Shown here: positions 45,962-52,623 of the stretch, piece by piece
Numbering within the stretch: the first letter of the stretch is position 1
Layout of the letters: each line of letters opens with the position of its first letter
Assembly (NCBI RefSeq): GCF_009177065.1
Contig: NZ_WEZF01000013.1
Span: 1 to 64,000, forward strand
Origin: Tautonia marina
GTDB lineage: Bacteria; Planctomycetota; Planctomycetia; Isosphaerales; Isosphaeraceae
Length of the DNA: 64,000 nt
Direction of reading: 5' to 3'
Translations under genes and position numbers: made by a program
The notes under the pieces: model-generated
Database searches by the model: none
Told to the model about the DNA's origin: nothing
The model's input: only the letters and a program-made list of their open reading frames with translations

Positions 45962-46516
45962 GTGCCCAAGATTTACACGAAAACCGGAGATGATGGTACC
46001 ACCGGCCTGCTCGGTCCCGGCCGAGTCGGCAAGGACGACCTTCGGATCGAGGCGTACGGCACCGTCGACGAGCTGAACGCCATCCTTGGCGTCGCCCGAT
46101 CAACCACCGCCATCAGCCTGGATCTCGACCGCAAGCTTTCCCAGATTCAGGAAGAGCTGTTCACCGTCGGTGCCGCCCTGGCCGACCCCGCCCCCGAAGG
46201 TCCGTTCCACAACAGCGTCCCGCGAGCCTTCACGCAGCGCATCGAGCACGAGATCGATCACGTCGAGTCGAGTTTGCCAACGTTGCAGCACTTCATTCTT
46301 CCGGGTGGCTCCCCCACGGCCTCGCAATTGCATCTGGCCCGTACCATCTGCCGGAGAGCCGAGCGCGTGACCGTTGCCCTGAGCCATGCCGAGGGGCAGC
46401 ACGTCCCGTCGAACCTCGTGATCTATTTGAACCGCCTGAGCGACTATCTGTTCGTCCTCGCCCGATCGGCCAATGCCGAGGCCGGTGTGGCCGACGTCCC
46501 CTGGAGAGGTCTGTGA
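45962..46516 (+). CDS. Cob(I)alamin / cob(I)yrinic acid a,c-diamide adenosyltransferase, PduO type
   Basis: 184 aa; GTG start with the protein beginning (M)PKIYTKTGDDGTTGLLGPGRVGKDDLRIEAYGTVDELNA, the ATP-binding signature of PduO/MMAB enzymes. QEELFTVGAALA, FILPGGSPTASQLHLARTICRRAERVTVAL and YLNRLSDYLFVLARSAN complete the five-helix bundle with the catalytic Arg residues. It transfers 5'-deoxyadenosyl to corrinoid, making coenzyme B12. The stop overlaps the next gene's GTG by 4 bp (GTGA), so the two are translationally coupled. Confidence 0.95.
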   Translation: MPKIYTKTGDDGTTGLLGPGRVGKDDLRIEAYGTVDELNAILGVARSTTAISLDLDRKLSQIQEELFTVGAALADPAPEGPFHNSVPRAFTQRIEHEIDHVESSLPTLQHFILPGGSPTASQLHLARTICRRAERVTVALSHAEGQHVPSNLVIYLNRLSDYLFVLARSANAEAGVADVPWRGL

Positions 46517-47289
46517 AGCTTGCCGGAGCCTCGATCCTGATCACCGGAGGCCGCCGCGTCGGTGCCTCGCTCGCCCGGTTGCTCGCCGACCGTGGCGCGA
46601 AGCTGGCCATGACCTTCCGGACCAGCCGCGACACCATCGAGCAAACCCTCGACGACTGCCGAGCCCGAGGAGCGGCCGACACCCTCGCCATCGCGGCCGA
46701 CCTGGCCGATCCCGACCAGGCCGAGCGTGCCGTCCGCCTGGTCGTCGAGCGGTTCGGACGGATCGACGCGCTGGTCAACATGGCCAGCATCTACGAACGG
46801 ACCCCATTTGCGGACCTGACGCCCGAGCATTACGACCGGATGATCGCCGCGAACCTCAGCGCGCCGTATCACTCGGCCGTCGCTGCCGGTAAGGCCATGC
46901 TGGCCCAGGAACCGATCGCCGACGCCTCGGGCCTGAAGGGGAAGATCATCTGCTTCGGCGACTGGGGAACCGATCGCCCCCGGGGCGGCGATCTGCCATA
47001 CATCGTCGCCAAAGGTGGCCTGACGACCATGACCCTGGCAATGGCCAAGGAACTCGCCCCCCACGTCGCGGTCAACCTGATTCAGCCGGGGACGATCGTT
47101 CCCTGGCCGGAGATGACCAACGAGCAACGGCAAGAGATTCTTCGGGCCACCCCCCTGGCCCGGCTTGGTTCGGCCGAAGACGCCAACCATCTGGTGCTCT
47201 ATTTGCTTGAAGGCACTGATTTTGCAACGGGTGGCTGTTATCGGATCGACGGCGGACGCTACCTGGGCACCGACGACGAACCTTCCTGA
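46513..47289 (+). CDS. SDR-family oxidoreductase, pteridine reductase (FolM/PTR1)-like
   Basis: 258 aa, GTG start overlapping the previous stop. ILITGGRRVGASLARLLADRGAKLAMTFRTS has the TGGRRVG nucleotide loop (Arg-containing, NADPH type) of pteridine reductase-like SDRs. ALVNMASIYERTPF holds the NNAS-equivalent, DLPYIVAKGGLTTMTLAMAKELAP gives the catalytic Tyr-Lys pair (YxxxK), and VNLIQPGTIVPWPEM the C-terminal Pro-Gly. It probably reduces a pterin or ketone with NADPH. Coupled to the adenosyltransferase gene. 134 bp before the kai-type cluster. Confidence 0.9.
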   Translation: MKLAGASILITGGRRVGASLARLLADRGAKLAMTFRTSRDTIEQTLDDCRARGAADTLAIAADLADPDQAERAVRLVVERFGRIDALVNMASIYERTPFADLTPEHYDRMIAANLSAPYHSAVAAGKAMLAQEPIADASGLKGKIICFGDWGTDRPRGGDLPYIVAKGGLTTMTLAMAKELAPHVAVNLIQPGTIVPWPEMTNEQRQEILRATPLARLGSAEDANHLVLYLLEGTDFATGGCYRIDGGRYLGTDDEPS

Positions 47290-47385: not shown

Positions 47386-47445
47386 ATGAGTTTCACGCGC
47401 ATGGCGGACCAGGGTGATTTCCATTGGGAGCATCGGGTACGGTGA
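47386..47445 (+). CDS. Possible 19-codon upstream ORF (leader peptide)
   Basis: ATG 47386 opens MSFTRMADQGDFHWEHRVR and stops with TGA at 47443-47445. The stop overlaps a GTG at 47442 (GTGA) that is in frame with the KaiA-like gene. If the true start of that gene is this GTG, the two would be translationally coupled. AAGGAACCTTGG precedes the ATG at a long distance. No homology can be claimed; this may be chance. Confidence 0.3.
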   Translation: MSFTRMADQGDFHWEHRVR

Positions 47446-48698
47446 TCGCCGGAGAGCTTCGGACAGTCTTGAACGTCCATGGCGACGGTGAAACCCGTGA
47501 GGCCGTGTCTCGGCTGCTCGTGGGCGAAGGGTTGCGGAGTCGGGACGTTCCCTCGACGGCCGAGGCCCGCGCCGCCCTGGCTGGTCCCGAGGCCCGGGAT
47601 GCCGGACTCATCTTGCTCGACGCGTCGCTCGACGAGGCGGAATCGTTCTGTCGCGAGGTGCTGCGATCGACCCCTTCCGTGCCCCTGGTGCTGACCCGAG
47701 CCCAGGACACGCCCTTATCGGAAGGGCTCTCCTCCCTTGCGGTCGAAGTCCTAGACCGTCCGCCCGATGAATCGCGATGGCTCGCCGCGATTCGAGCCTG
47801 GACTCGGGTCGGCGGTCGAGTGCAGGAACTCGGTGCCGAGGCCGAGCGCTGGCGGTCGATCTTCGAGGCGATCGACGAGGGGATGGCCCTGCTCGACCCC
47901 GATGGCCGGATTCGATGGTGCAACATCGCGCTGGCCGGCTTACTTCGAGACAAGCCGACGGCCTTGCTCGGCCAGCGGCTGAGCGATCGGGCGGCGCACC
48001 TCATCCCCCCGGGCCGCCAGTGGCCCCACGATCGAACCCTTCGCAGCGGTTCCCGGAGCCGGGACGAGTGGGAACTGGAGCATCACTGGTTCCGATCGGC
48101 CGCCGCCCCGGTCCGAAACGCGATCGGTTCCCTGAGCGGGGTCGTCACCACCATCGAAGACGTGTCGCACGAGGTGCGGCTCCGCCAGCGAATCGCCCAG
48201 GTCGAAGCCGAGGCCGAGGCCCGTTCCGAACGGATCGATCGGCTCGAACGTGATGCCAGGCTCTATCAGGCGCTCGCCGGCATTCCCGTTCGCCCCGAGG
48301 ATCTGGGGGCTCCGCGTCATCTCCCGCTGAGCCGCGAAATGCCCGAGGTCTTTTGCGATGCTCTGGAAGACTTCGGACGCGTGCTCGATCTGCGCTTGCT
48401 CCGCCGCAGCTACCAGACGCAACACCAGCCCGACGGCTCGGCCATCCTGAGCGCCCTGGCCGAGCGGCTTGCCACCGCCGGCGCGGGGCCGCGCGACGTG
48501 ATCGAATTGCACGCGATGGCCCTTCGACAGCGCTCCTCCGGCACGAAAGCTGCAAAAGTGAATGTGTATGCCGAGGAAGCTCAACTTGCCGTGCTAGAGT
48601 TAATGGGCCGTCTTGCCGAACACTATCGCGCCGGTCTCGCCGCCGCGACTCGCAATGAAGCGGTCGCATCGGATCGGTCCCCGGATTTCTCGGAGTGA
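47424..48698 (+). CDS. KaiA-like protein: pseudo-receiver + PAS + coiled coil + KaiA-type C-terminal domain
   Basis: 424 aa from TTG 47424 (AGGGTG upstream); GTG 47442 is an alternative start. Residues about 12-128 look like a response-regulator fold: LILLDASLD keeps the phosphoacceptor-position Asp, but the acidic pair is degraded (VHGD) and the Lys is Arg (LDRPPD), so it is a pseudo-receiver, as in KaiA. A PAS domain (about 141-247) and a coiled coil (about 247-283) follow. Residues about 303-406 match the cyanobacterial KaiA C-terminal domain by pattern: LRLLRRSYQ, then DVIELHAMAL (KaiA: VVEIHMELM), then AVLELMGRLAEHYRAG (KaiA: TLIDVIAHLCEMYRRS). Gene order KaiA-like, kaiB, kaiC supports the call. 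This domain in KaiA binds the KaiC tail and stimulates phosphorylation. The alignment is from memory and needs a profile search. Confidence 0.75.
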   Translation: MGASGTVIAGELRTVLNVHGDGETREAVSRLLVGEGLRSRDVPSTAEARAALAGPEARDAGLILLDASLDEAESFCREVLRSTPSVPLVLTRAQDTPLSEGLSSLAVEVLDRPPDESRWLAAIRAWTRVGGRVQELGAEAERWRSIFEAIDEGMALLDPDGRIRWCNIALAGLLRDKPTALLGQRLSDRAAHLIPPGRQWPHDRTLRSGSRSRDEWELEHHWFRSAAAPVRNAIGSLSGVVTTIEDVSHEVRLRQRIAQVEAEAEARSERIDRLERDARLYQALAGIPVRPEDLGAPRHLPLSREMPEVFCDALEDFGRVLDLRLLRRSYQTQHQPDGSAILSALAERLATAGAGPRDVIELHAMALRQRSSGTKAAKVNVYAEEAQLAVLELMGRLAEHYRAGLAAATRNEAVASDRSPDFSE

Positions 48699-48704
48699 CC
48701 GTCT

Positions 48705-49025
48705 ATGGACCGTTATCTCTTAAAATTGTACATCACGGGCCTGACCTCCCGATCGCAACGCGCCGTCGCGACGTTGCAGCGCCTCTGCGATTCGGAGTTG
48801 TCCGGCAGGTATGACCTGCTGGTCGTCGATGTACTCGAACAACCCGAGCTGGCCGAGCAAGACAAGGTGCTTGCTACGCCCACGGTGATCAAGGAACACC
48901 CCGAGCCGCAACGCCGAATTATCGGCGATCTCTCCGACGCGGCTCGCGTGCTGGCGGCGCTCGATCTCCATGCGAGCGAGACGCACGCCCCGGTCACGGA
49001 TTCCCGCGTCAAGGAGGCCGATTGA
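48705..49025 (+). CDS. kaiB: Circadian-clock protein KaiB
   Basis: 106 aa, close to the cyanobacterial length. YLLKLYITGLTSRSQRAVATLQ is the thioredoxin-like first strand and helix. YDLLVVDVLEQPELAEQDKVLATPT (about 36-60) contains the family's LAE-D-KILATPTL region with the cis-Pro. PEPQRRIIGDLSDAARVLAALDL (about 66-88) matches the KaiB PPPVRRIIGDLS..EKVL..LDL signature. The long acidic C-terminal tail of cyanobacterial KaiB is reduced. KaiB switches fold, binds the KaiC CI ring and captures KaiA. It lies 6 bp after the KaiA-like stop and 7 bp before kaiC. Confidence 0.96.
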   Translation: MDRYLLKLYITGLTSRSQRAVATLQRLCDSELSGRYDLLVVDVLEQPELAEQDKVLATPTVIKEHPEPQRRIIGDLSDAARVLAALDLHASETHAPVTDSRVKEAD

Positions 49026-49032
49026 ACCTTCC

Positions 49033-50553
49033 ATGTCGATCTCGAAGCTCCCTACGGAAATCCACGGATTCGACCTCATCGCCTGCGGTGGCCTTCCCGA
49101 AGGCCGGGTGACACTGGTGGCCGGATCGTCCGGCAGTGCCAAGACGGTCTTCGGCGCCCAGTTTCTGGCCGCTGGGATCATGAAGCGCGATGAGCCAGGG
49201 GTCTTCGTCACCTTCGAGGAAACCCCAGAGGACCTGCGGCGCAACTTCGGCGGCCTCGGCTGGGACATCCCCTCGTGGGAAGCGCAGGGCCGTTGGGCCT
49301 TTGTCGATGTCTCTCCCGATCCAGGGGAACAACCCGTCTTTGCCGGCGGCTACGACCTGGGCGCCCTGATGGCCCGCGTGCAATACGCGGTCAAGAAAGT
49401 CGGCGCGAAGCGCCTGGTCCTCGATGCCATCGGGGCCTTCTTCGGTCAGTTTCCCGACCAGCACACCGTCCGGTCCGAGCTGTTCCGGATGACCCGAGCC
49501 TTGCGATCGCTGGGCGTGACCTCGCTCATCACGGCCGAGCGAGGCGAGGAGTACGGCTCCGTCTCACGCTACGGCGTCGAGGAATTCGTCTCGGATAACG
49601 TCATCATCCTCCGCAACGTGCTCGACGAGGAAGTCCGCCGCCGAACGCTCGAAATCCTCAAATTCCGCGGCACCGACCACTTGAAAGGGGAGTGGCCCTT
49701 CACGATCGTCCCCGAACGCGGGATCGTCGCGATTCCGCTGGCCGCCCTGGAGCTGAAGCAAAAATCGTCCGACGTGCGCATCTCGTCGGGCAATGCCGAC
49801 ATCGACCGCATGTGCGGCGGCGGCTTCTTCCGCGATTCGATCGTCCTGGTCAGCGGGGCCACGGGCACGGGCAAGACCTTGCTCTCGACCGAGTTCATCG
49901 CCGGAGGAGCCCGCAGCGGCGAGCGCAGCCTTTTATTCGCCTTCGAGGAAAGCCGCGAGCAACTGTTCCGCAACGCCGCCGGCTGGGGGGCCGACTTCGC
50001 GACCCTCGAAGCCCAGGGGTTGCTCAAGGTGCTCTGCACCTATCCCGAATCGACCACGCTGGAAGACACGCTTATCCTTATCAAAGAAACGGTCGAAGAA
50101 TTCCAGCCCGACCGAATCGCCGTCGATAGTCTCTCGGCCCTGGAACGGGTCGCGCCGGTCAAGAGCTTCCGAGAGTTCGTCATCGGCCTGACCTCGGCGA
50201 TCAAGGACAAGGAAGTTCCCGCGCTGTTCACGGCCACGACCGACAGCCTGCTCGGCGGCTCGTCGATCACCGAGGCTCATATCTCAACCATTACCGACTC
50301 GATTATCCTGCTCCGCTATGTCGAGCTGTTCGGAGAGATCCGACGCGGCATGACCGTGCTCAAGATGCGCGGTTCGTGGCACGAAAAGGTGATCAGAGAG
50401 TTCACGATCGACGGCTCCGGCCTGCACCTGGGCCATCCGTTCCGCAACGTTTCGGGGATCCTCTCCGGCATGCTCTCGCATGCGGGCTCGTCGCCGTCGA
50501 ATCGGATCGACGACCTGTTCCAGGACGACCCCCCGCCTCCACCGGCTCATTAA
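49033..50553 (+). CDS. kaiC: Circadian-clock ATPase/autokinase KaiC
   Basis: 506 aa from ATG 49033 (AAGGAGG upstream at a long spacing), close to the 519 aa of the cyanobacterial protein. Two RecA-like domains. CI: Walker A GSSGSAKT (31-38; Ala in place of the second Gly), catalytic EE 62-63, Walker B LVLD to 131. CII: Walker A GATGTGKT (275-282), EE 305-306, Walker B IAVD to 365. The phosphorylation loop SITEAHISTITDSI keeps T413, S418 and T419, equivalent to T426/S431/T432 of Synechococcus KaiC. KMRGSWHEKVIREF follows. The C-terminal tail, which in KaiC is the KaiA-binding peptide, is about 33 aa and ends Pro-rich. It is expected to be a hexameric ATPase/autokinase. Confidence 0.96.
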   Translation: MSISKLPTEIHGFDLIACGGLPEGRVTLVAGSSGSAKTVFGAQFLAAGIMKRDEPGVFVTFEETPEDLRRNFGGLGWDIPSWEAQGRWAFVDVSPDPGEQPVFAGGYDLGALMARVQYAVKKVGAKRLVLDAIGAFFGQFPDQHTVRSELFRMTRALRSLGVTSLITAERGEEYGSVSRYGVEEFVSDNVIILRNVLDEEVRRRTLEILKFRGTDHLKGEWPFTIVPERGIVAIPLAALELKQKSSDVRISSGNADIDRMCGGGFFRDSIVLVSGATGTGKTLLSTEFIAGGARSGERSLLFAFEESREQLFRNAAGWGADFATLEAQGLLKVLCTYPESTTLEDTLILIKETVEEFQPDRIAVDSLSALERVAPVKSFREFVIGLTSAIKDKEVPALFTATTDSLLGGSSITEAHISTITDSIILLRYVELFGEIRRGMTVLKMRGSWHEKVIREFTIDGSGLHLGHPFRNVSGILSGMLSHAGSSPSNRIDDLFQDDPPPPPAH

Positions 50554-50589: not shown

Positions 50590-52623
50590 ATGGAAGGATC
50601 GAATGAGCGAAGGGAGCCCGCATCCCTGCCACTGGGCGGGCCAGGCCCTCCCCAGATCGCAGCCGCTCCCTTTCAGCAAATGGTCGAGCATGGCGCCGAT
50701 GGCCTGGCGATCCTCGACGCCTCGGGAGTCATCGTCTATGCCAATCCGGCCGCCTCGGCCCTGCTGGGCCGGCCCTTGAATCTGTTGATCGGTCGGCCGC
50801 TGGGCTTGCCGGTCGTCGCCTTTCAATCGGCCGAGATCGACGTGCCGACGGCCGGAGAGTCGGCACGCATCGTCGAGCTTCGATCAACCCAAGTGGACTG
50901 GGAAGGCGGCCCCGCCTTGCTCGTCGGCCTGAGAGACGTCACCGCCTATCGTCGCCTCGTCGACAACCAGCGCTTCCTCGTTCGGGCCGGGGCCGAGCTG
51001 GCCCATTCGCTCGATCTTCCCACCACCCTCGCCCAGATCTCCCAGCTCGTCATTGAGGATCTGGCCGATGGCTGTCTAATCGACCTGATCCAGCCCGACG
51101 GCACCGTCCTCCGTCCGATTGCCCGGCACGCGACCGCCGAGGATGACGCCCTGCTGGCTCCGCTTCGAGACGGCTCCTGCGTCGATCTGAACGAACCCAT
51201 CGGCCTTCCTCGCGCCCTCCGCACCGGCCGTCCCAAGATCTACAACCGCACCACCGAGTCGGCCATCGACTCACTGGCGACCGATCCCGTCCGTCGTCAA
51301 ACGCTCCGGCAGATCGGCATCGGTTCCATCATGATCCTGCCCCTGATTGCTCGGGACCGGATCCTCGGGGCCTTGACCCTTTTGACCACGCGTCCCGGTC
51401 GCTTTTTCTCGGCCGCCGATCTTCCCAGTGCCGGAGAACTGGCCACCCTGGCCGCACTGGCCATCGACAACGCCCAACTCTATGACAACGCCCGAGAGGC
51501 CGTTCGACGCCGAGACGAATTCCTCGCCATGCTCTCCCACGAGCTGCGCAACCCCCTCTCCTCGATCATTCACGCCACCACCCTGCTCCAGAGCCACCAG
51601 AACCTCCACTCCGATCAGACCGGGGCGATCGAGGTGGTGGCCCGCCAGTCTCAACAGATGAGCCGATTGCTCGACGACCTGCTCGATATCTCTCGGGTCA
51701 CCCGGGGGATCATTCATCTGGAGCGCCTGCCGGTCGATCTGCTCGACGTGCTCGATCAGGCTCTCGAATCGGCCCGGCCGGCGATCGAATCGGCCGGACA
51801 TCGCCTGCACCTGAACCTCTCGGGCGGCTTGATGCCGGTGATCGGCGATCAAACCCGGCTGGTCCAGGTCCTGATCAACCTGCTCACGAACGCCGCGCGT
51901 TACACCCCCTCCGGCGGCGACATCTGGCTGGAGATGGCCTCGAGACCGCAGACGGTGGAGCTTGTGGTTCGAGACAACGGCATCGGCATCGAACCCGAGT
52001 TCCTTCCCCAGATCTTTGACCTGTTCACCCAGGGACGCCGCAGCCTCGATCGCTCGCAAGGGGGCCTTGGCATCGGTCTGACGCTGGTCCGGGAAATCGT
52101 CGAGCTGCACGACGGCTCCATCTCGGCCTTCAGCGACGGCCCGGGGCTTGGCAGCACCTTCCGGGTCCGATTGCCGGTTGCCAGTGTGCAAACGGACCCA
52201 ATCAATACGCCGATCACACCGGCTCCCCGTCAGACTCCTTCGGAGCTGCGCCCCCTTCGCATCCTGCTGGTCGAGGATCACGACGACAACCGCGAGATGC
52301 TCCGCACCCTCCTGATGCTCAGCGGCCATCAGGTCGAAACTGCCGCCGACGGCCACGCGGCGCTCGACGCCCTCCGACATCGGCCCGACCTGTCCCTCAT
52401 CGACATCGGGTTACCCGGCATCGACGGCCTGACGCTCGCTCGGATCGTTCGATCCGACCCCGATCTCAGCGACCTGACCCTGATCGCCGTGACCGGCTAC
52501 GCCCGTCCCGAAGACCGTGCCGAGAGCCTCGACGCGGGCTTCGACGACCATCTCCCCAAACCCGTTCGGATCGATGACCTGAAGCGTCTGCTCGATCGCC
52601 TTCCTCGGTCTGCCGATCCGTGA
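50590..52623 (+). CDS. Hybrid sensor histidine kinase: PAS-GAF-HisKA-HATPase-REC
   Basis: 677 aa, 36 bp after kaiC. PAS (about 25-118, QMVEHGADGLAILDASGVIVYANPAASALLG), GAF (about 130-298), HisKA with phospho-His H317 in SHELRNPL, HATPase with N box NLLTNAARY, G1 DNGIG (462-466) and G2 GGLGIGL (491-497). The C-terminal receiver has acidic pair ED (562-563), phosphoacceptor D605 in LIDIGLPG, T635 and K657, all intact. There is no KaiB-like sensor domain as in SasA, and no membrane segment. Position makes it the likely output or input kinase of the kai-type module. No DNA-binding regulator is adjacent. Confidence 0.93.
   Translation: MEGSNERREPASLPLGGPGPPQIAAAPFQQMVEHGADGLAILDASGVIVYANPAASALLGRPLNLLIGRPLGLPVVAFQSAEIDVPTAGESARIVELRSTQVDWEGGPALLVGLRDVTAYRRLVDNQRFLVRAGAELAHSLDLPTTLAQISQLVIEDLADGCLIDLIQPDGTVLRPIARHATAEDDALLAPLRDGSCVDLNEPIGLPRALRTGRPKIYNRTTESAIDSLATDPVRRQTLRQIGIGSIMILPLIARDRILGALTLLTTRPGRFFSAADLPSAGELATLAALAIDNAQLYDNAREAVRRRDEFLAMLSHELRNPLSSIIHATTLLQSHQNLHSDQTGAIEVVARQSQQMSRLLDDLLDISRVTRGIIHLERLPVDLLDVLDQALESARPAIESAGHRLHLNLSGGLMPVIGDQTRLVQVLINLLTNAARYTPSGGDIWLEMASRPQTVELVVRDNGIGIEPEFLPQIFDLFTQGRRSLDRSQGGLGIGLTLVREIVELHDGSISAFSDGPGLGSTFRVRLPVASVQTDPINTPITPAPRQTPSELRPLRILLVEDHDDNREMLRTLLMLSGHQVETAADGHAALDALRHRPDLSLIDIGLPGIDGLTLARIVRSDPDLSDLTLIAVTGYARPEDRAESLDAGFDDHLPKPVRIDDLKRLLDRLPRSADP

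Follow-up and report, generated by a model that had tools for sequence, protein, structure and literature searches.

A hybrid histidine kinase downstream of kaiC in Tautonia marina carries a kai-associated PAS domain and is a candidate reader of a KaiA3B3C3-type timer

SasA is the kinase that reads the Kai complex, and a hybrid histidine kinase of another kind starts directly 3' of kaiC in the window analyzed here, a stretch of 64,000 nucleotides from contig NZ_WEZF01000013.1 of the planctomycete Tautonia marina, whose genome comprises 7.07 Mb. For the KaiA3-KaiB3-KaiC3 system, the output components and the kinase for KaiA3 were described in 2024 as yet to be identified, according to the accessible part of that report (PMC11372060). 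The gene at issue closes a row of four on the + strand, namely a KaiA-like gene (47424-48698), kaiB (48705-49025), kaiC (49033-50553) and the kinase gene (50590-52623), separated by gaps of 6, 7 and 36 bp. These genes form an apparent operon and are presumably co-transcribed; a promoter scan of the window found no promoter, and the terminator count was 4 for the window compared to 3.5 in shuffled sequences. An SDR-type oxidoreductase gene (46513-47289, named by eye) lies 5' of the KaiA-like gene. Its position is conserved in all four genomes of the genus, and it marks the empty kai site in the congener that is described below.

The KaiB and KaiC proteins of the window both score above the Pfam cut-offs. 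KaiB (106 aa) reached 93.7 bits against a cut-off of 27; two NCBIfam KaiB models have cut-offs that it does not reach. KaiC (506 aa) scored 617.6 bits with NCBIfam (cut-off 546.25) and consists of two KaiC domains with the glutamate pairs EE62-63 and EE305-306. Residues S418 and T419 in the second domain stand at the position of the phosphorylation sites, which we take to be that of S431/T432. By identity the protein is of the KaiC3 type, as it shares 61-65% of its residues with KaiC of four cyanobacterial KaiA3-like loci (L085, L086, L093 and L116) and 53-56% with KaiC of 13 loci that have a canonical kaiA.

The gene upstream of kaiB, which encodes 424 aa, was not mentioned in the preliminary description of this locus. 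By Pfam alone it is a PAS protein: at E≤1 the scan matched neither KaiA nor RsbU, it found no phosphatase domain, and the N-terminus gave no Response_reg at E≤1, the only match there being FleQ at E 0.25. Pfam, NCBIfam and a profile of 8 rows (A1) gave no KaiA match, and a profile of 43 rows (A4) was needed. The last ~105 residues of the protein align with the same part of genes that precede kaiB elsewhere. When a profile was iterated over the ORFs of kai loci, canonical cyanobacterial KaiA joined it, with initial E values of 4e-5 to 7e-4 in this small database. Profile A4, made of 43 KaiA-type domains with canonical KaiA excluded, was then compared with 177635 PDB sequences. KaiA chains came first (1q6a, E 0.00094) with one unrelated chain among them (E 0.016), whereas chains of the RsbU N-terminal domain ranked after them, from E 0.14; the lack of a phosphatase domain match is a further difference from RsbU. 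An hhalign comparison of the domain with 13 canonical KaiA sequences gave E 1.4e-5 and a probability of 80.

The predicted structure of the C-terminal domain (aa 300-405; 48321-48638, + strand) had a pLDDT of 92. In Foldseek its best five matches were all KaiA, with prob 0.91-1.00 and E values of 0.046-0.18, none below 0.001. In VIA the best eight rows were KaiA as well (Z 10.9-11.8), followed by a stressosome domain at 10.2. Because helical bundles often give such fold scores, sequence and gene position were also weighed in the assignment. The full-length model, with a pLDDT of 78.7, shows an N-terminal receiver fold, a PAS domain, a coiled coil and the helical bundle. In the receiver (47463-47813, + strand) the Asp of LLDASL is kept and the acid pair and the Lys are changed, as judged by eye from alignments, and we call this receiver degenerate. 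From its profile matches and predicted fold, we classify the upstream gene as KaiA-like, with a KaiA-type C-terminal domain modeled as four helices.

Exactly one match to the KaiA-like domain was found in each of 8 of the 45 genomes of the family and none in the other 37. In scans of the phylum, which scored no more than 12 or 13 candidates in each genome for KaiB, the KaiA-like domain and the PAS type discussed below so that all counts are lower bounds, at least 26 of 392 genomes had a match to the KaiA-like domain at E≤0.001. At least six of the matches fell below E 1e-20, and these are the window gene and five genes adjoining kaiB; the remaining 20 genomes gave weaker matches, the best at E 1e-15. 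Many genomes of the class contain ORFs of ~350 aa that match the domain weakly at ~30-40 bits (for example G353 and G369, loci L178 and L179), and these are possibly RsbU-like.

A set of 80 KaiC loci, drawn by similarity to KaiC of the window type, comprised 58 loci from outside the cyanobacteria and 22 from within. The KaiA-like domain reached at least 40 bits in 44 of the 80, and in 40 of the 58 outside the Cyanobacteriota, which speaks for a KaiA-type partner being common outside this phylum. The front ends of these proteins vary. They include a receiver (L033, L042 and others), a receiver followed by PAS (L092, and weakly L089), two PAS domains (L079, L081 and L124), MASE3-PAS (L091) and MEDS-PAS-PAS (L120), and in Kuenenia the KaiA domain is preceded by dCache-HAMP-PAS, with the dCache match below its cut-off. 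The Kuenenia gene (L034, 8696-10639; the same layout occurs in L103, Candidatus Kuenenia hertensis) thus places a KaiA-type domain on a protein resembling a membrane receptor, directly 5' of kaiB-kaiC; two proteins with the PAS type described below follow these genes. In five other loci (L166, L167, L168, L169 and L170) a kinase gene overlaps by 4 bp the start of a receiver-bearing KaiA-like gene, which is followed by kaiC, and the kinase and the KaiA-like protein in these loci are likely an input pair.

The preliminary description had presented the gene after kaiC as a hybrid kinase that lacks the KaiB-like domain of SasA and has PAS, GAF and an intact receiver of its own instead. Both points were borne out. 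The kinase is a single ORF of 677 aa in which Pfam identified PAS (PAS_8, aa 28-74), GAF (141-293; 51010-51468), HisKA (308-372) and HATPase_c (419-531), the last two forming the core at 51511-52182, and Response_reg (558-667; 52261-52590), all on the + strand and all five above their gathering scores. Alignments inspected by eye showed SHELRNPL from aa 316 with the phospho-accepting His 317, an N box from 434 and G boxes from aa 462 and 492. The receiver is intact because E562/D563, D605, T635 and K657 are all present. The Pfam scan found no KaiB-like domain in the kinase, which distinguishes it from SasA and led us to reject that identity. Furthermore, kaiB itself gave the sole KaiB match at E≤0.001 when the entire genome was searched, and a genome with a single KaiB domain is therefore one without SasA. 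The NCBIfam model PRK09303, presumably the SasA model by its name, matched the kinase in the core only, at 131.5 bits compared to a cut-off of 342. The search for a cognate Hpt that had been proposed earlier gave 7 Hpt matches in the genome; none lies on the contig of the window, and no partner could be assigned to the kinase.

Linkage of such a kinase to kai genes, on which the earlier description depended, is conserved in relatives. The identical four-gene set is found in three of the four genomes of the genus, the fourth being without kaiABC. A kaiB of the KaiB3 type was assigned in 12 family genomes, and in 11 of them the cluster includes a kinase with the N-terminal PAS type of the window kinase, for which we coin the name Kai-PAS; in the twelfth (G412) the cluster is cut by the end of the contig. 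We also asked which part of the kinase follows the kai genes. Conservation of the whole kinase was rejected. Among 7 genomes that carry a KaiB3-type cluster and lie outside the genus, there were 5 in which the window kinase scored best against a kinase that is not kai-linked. For example, in G418 a kinase elsewhere scored 395 bits compared to 290 for the kai-linked one, and in G377 and G397 the kai-linked kinase was the best match. Single-domain queries were run against ORFs mostly from kai loci, supplemented with 21 loci carrying non-kai kinases of this genome and its relatives. The GAF domain, the core and the receiver each retrieved the kinases of the genus first, below which many non-kai kinases were mixed in, and outside the genus their nearest rows among the sequences compared were non-kai kinases. 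The PAS query, on the other hand, retrieved 73 ORFs at E≤1e-8, a number in which several loci are counted twice, with none among the non-kai kinases; all 73 are in kai loci except one in G110 (L176), which adjoins a KaiA-like domain only. In that genome the KaiA-like domain (L268, 4807-7529) scores 58 bits and adjoins a Kai-PAS protein, and no KaiC was found in the genome at E≤1e-30.

The GAF domain is present in the kinases of two congeners, G430 and G432, and was not matched at E≤1e-4 by any of 6 kai-linked kinases from the family's other genera. In a tree of 39 kinase cores, a single clade for the ten rows that are kai3-linked or from the genus was rejected (AU p 0.00014). The congener without kaiABC is G432. 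Its flanking genes are the same, and its kinase is kept from residue 128 on, so that the protein starts after the PAS domain and retains GAF, kinase core and receiver. The genome assembly, which is 94% complete, gave no match to KaiB, the KaiA-like domain or KaiC, and no Kai-PAS above 33 bits. Pairwise identities gave a mixed picture of whether kaiABC was gained or lost. In the kinase tree, G430 and G432 group together at 94/77, which tentatively favors a loss in G432. As judged by these comparisons, what is conserved with the kai genes is the N-terminal PAS domain and not the whole kinase.

This result bears on the earlier proposal that the domain set is closer to that of CikA, whose hallmark is a C-terminal pseudo-receiver lacking the phospho-accepting Asp. 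The window kinase does resemble CikA in the order of a GAF domain, HisKA/HATPase_c and a C-terminal receiver-type domain, and its likely contact with KaiB, discussed below, would be a second likeness. However, its receiver is intact, it has an extra PAS domain, and this PAS is the part that is linked to the kai genes, whereas the GAF domain, core and receiver are nearest to non-kai kinases and the core is not shared. We consequently rejected an assignment to CikA by domain set, and the proposal is not supported.

The Kai-PAS domain of the window kinase (approximately aa 26-123; 50665-50958, + strand) scored 122.5 bits with profile A6, of which it is itself a row. This profile has 28 rows built from kai-linked PAS domains and favors such domains. 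An invariant Trp (aa 104 in the window kinase) and invariant E, R and D positions stand out in it, and no conserved Cys or His is present, the maximum in any column being 3 of 28 for Cys and 5 of 28 for His. In the 45 family genomes, for each of which 21-111 candidates were scored, 13 had a match at 122-147 bits; the next scores were 84 and 67.5 bits, and all others were at most 46. The Kai-PAS is clustered with a KaiB3-type kaiB in 11 of the 13, adjoins kaiC in G413, where the contig ends, and lies at a contig edge in G407.

Outside the family, Kai-PAS reached at least 60 bits in 43 of the 58 non-cyanobacterial KaiC loci compared to 1 of the 22 cyanobacterial ones, and the other 15 of the 58 showed no Kai-PAS in the DNA examined. 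The Kai-PAS gene starts between -150 and +450 bp from the end of kaiC in 33 of the 58. When only loci outside profile A6 were counted, the domain was found in 24 of 39. We also scanned 40 whole genomes from which loci outside the profile had come, and 32 of them contained a total of 42 matches at E≤1e-12; the best match could be placed in 30 of these 32 and lay within the kai locus in 24 (in two cases 6-7 kb from kaiC) and outside the kai locus examined in 6, one of them at a contig edge. Across the phylum, at least 24 of 392 genomes had a Kai-PAS of at least 60 bits, and a KaiB match was present in 10 of these 24 compared to 26 of the 368 others (p 9.6e-6, on lower-bound counts). Where kaiC precedes kaiB and the KaiC is a distant one, KaiC2-like by our reading, the kinases of the cluster scored at most 18 bits if they matched at all, although this control is blurred because three clusters with an intermediate KaiC scored 83 (L045), 62 (L075) and 42 bits (L076). 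In L033 the kinase after kaiC has no Kai-PAS. In the cyanobacterium Brasilonema (L138), KaiB and KaiC, with no KaiA detected in the locus, are followed by a Kai-PAS hybrid kinase.

The association is not exclusive. We found 18 copies of at least 60 bits with no clear kai gene in the stretch examined (L252-L267, L278 and L279), some of them on short contigs, and an exclusive link to kai genes was rejected for this reason; three of these copies, in L253, L254 and L278, reach 121-131 bits, and their stretches contain no kai gene. The proteins that carry the domain are diverse. Among ten encoded after kaiC that were scanned, that of L113 has a GGDEF domain, that of L126 has GGDEF-EAL and that of L106 is a HisKA_2 kinase; the rest are HisKA kinases, in which a receiver and Hpt may be present or absent. 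In 7 loci Kai-PAS stands in front of a KaiA domain. One sensor-type domain placed on unrelated effectors in the same neighborhood would look like a docking or reading module.

To which Kai protein such a module might bind is suggested by the cases in which the kai genes are separated. In five genomes (G340, G239, G357, G268 and G293) a divergent kaiB adjoins a Kai-PAS kinase of 40-128 bits on the same strand, and no KaiC was found in these genomes at E≤1e-30. The KaiB proteins of these pairs (L270, L271, L272, L273 and L274) scored 23-53 bits with Pfam, that of G340 being below the cut-off of 27. In the genus g279, a kinase, kaiA and kaiC are at one site, and kaiB is at another together with a Kai-PAS kinase. 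Because of the pairs without KaiC, the split in g279 and the coincident absence in G432, the latter two being single events each, KaiB rather than KaiC is the more probable partner of Kai-PAS, and a physical contact between the PAS domain of the kinase and the Kai complex is presumed. Cyanobacterial KaiA and CikA both bind fold-switched KaiB. By analogy, a PAS domain common to KaiA-like proteins and kinases would fit such binding. The earlier suggestion of either an output kinase or a CikA-like input thus survives in part: co-occurrence suggests a contact with KaiB like that of CikA, but not an identity with CikA by domain set.

Taken together, we consider it somewhat probable that the window kinase is the output arm of a KaiA3B3C3-type timer and is docked through its Kai-PAS, most likely on KaiB. 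The kinase would dock on the Kai complex via this N-terminal domain while KaiB is seated on the KaiC ring, and docking would alter autophosphorylation at His 317. The phosphoryl group would pass to D605 of the kinase's own receiver, which would hand it on to an Hpt or response regulator encoded elsewhere, with the GAF domain possibly contributing a second signal. At the other end, input would enter through the degenerate receiver and the PAS domain that precede the KaiA domain of the KaiA-like protein, and this putative KaiA domain should stimulate KaiC. Both the direction of signaling, with the kinase as output, and the rhythm of this Kai system are presumed in this scheme.

PAS and GAF domains are classic sensors of small ligands, and the kinase could instead serve as an input that senses a metabolite or redox state and signals to the Kai core, either as CikA does or via the KaiA-like protein. 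The available part of one report describes CikA as acting in both input and output (PMC5520375), and by hand count a kinase lies directly 5' of the KaiA-like gene in 14 of 31 receiver-bearing cases compared to 0 of 17 without a receiver; with near copies collapsed and two cases with little upstream sequence dropped, the counts are 9 of 24 and 0 of 15 (p 0.007, post hoc). In the window, however, no kinase lies 5' of the KaiA-like gene, and because the receiver of the KaiA-like protein is degenerate, input by phosphorylation of KaiA is less likely here. The residues usually involved in ligand binding are not conserved in Kai-PAS, as the low counts of Cys and His per column show, and the domain precedes unrelated output domains. 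Overall, we regard a role as input as unlikely.

The position of Kai-PAS directly after kaiC in 33 of the 58 non-cyanobacterial loci, together with G413 and G179, in which kaiC is followed by the Kai-PAS kinase, would suit a domain that reads KaiC or its phosphorylation state directly. The pairs of KaiB and Kai-PAS kinase in five genomes without KaiC, and the position of the kinase apart from kaiC in g279, argue for KaiB instead, and direct reading of KaiC seems to us rather improbable. We give still less credence to a link by neighborhood only, in which the PAS domain responds to a cofactor or ligand that kai carriers share and the kinase makes no contact with Kai proteins. Such a link would account for the copies away from kai genes, some of them high-scoring, but not readily for the gap in score that separates the kai-linked PAS domains of the family from its other ones, for the absence in G432 of exactly Kai-PAS together with kaiABC, or for the presence of Kai-PAS in KaiA-like proteins. 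Docking of an output kinase on KaiB remains the reading that we prefer.

The locus can be compared with described Kai systems. Orthologs of the Synechocystis KaiA3-KaiB3-KaiC3 proteins are listed for Roseiflexus, Chloroflexus, Chloroherpeton, Rhodospirillum and Bradyrhizobium in the accessible part of the 2024 report (PMC11372060). The window shares with that system the order kaiA-like, kaiB, kaiC and a KaiA-like protein that combines a receiver-type N-terminus with a KaiA-type C-domain, as in KaiA3. It differs in that the receiver is degenerate and lacks the complete pocket around the conserved Asp, a PAS domain is added, and a kinase follows in the operon. A kinase or a GGDEF/EAL protein directly after kaiC/kaiB was noted outside the cyanobacteria in 2011, and in the sections available to us a legend refers to a hybrid kinase next to kaiC whose domains include PAS, GAF and a receiver, and an N-terminal reading module, compared with SasA and KaiB, is proposed for kaiC-kinase pairs that lack kaiB (PMC3164672). 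As far as the available text of the respective reports goes, R. palustris has kaiC-kaiB-PAS kinase (PMC4794148, 2016), and R. sphaeroides has kaiBC with a PAS protein (PMC6627678). In the available portions of these three reports, however, no PAS type common to kinases, GGDEF proteins and KaiA-like proteins is singled out. Planctomycetaceae bacterium TMED241 has a kaiABC operon that is described, in the part of the source at hand, as typical of cyanobacteria (PMC8113500); it is similar to the window in having kaiA, kaiB and kaiC together in a genome labeled as planctomycete. In the open literature searched, a scope outside of which lay most subscription journals and all supplements, we found no description of Kai-PAS as a Kai-linked domain, and neither its exchange between effectors nor the wide range of sensor-KaiA fusions was found there.

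Beyond this locus, we tentatively entertain, as a possibility short of an expectation, that Kai-PAS is a general reader of KaiB in non-cyanobacterial KaiABC-type timers and that KaiA-type proteins are modular input receptors. Kai-PAS would then be a third clock reader beside the KaiB-like domain of SasA and the pseudo-receiver of CikA, fitted to kinases, to diguanylate cyclases/phosphodiesterases and also to KaiA-like proteins, and the KaiA-type domain would receive its signals from front ends of the receiver, PAS, MASE3, MEDS or dCache-HAMP type. With a length of ~100 residues, Kai-PAS accompanies kai genes in many phyla and is exchanged among output modules. It provides a sequence marker for candidate clock-coupled proteins, and it makes the question of clock output testable with one binding assay. 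For Tautonia marina, the kinase after kaiC is a good candidate for the clock reader where the cyanobacterial reader is missing.
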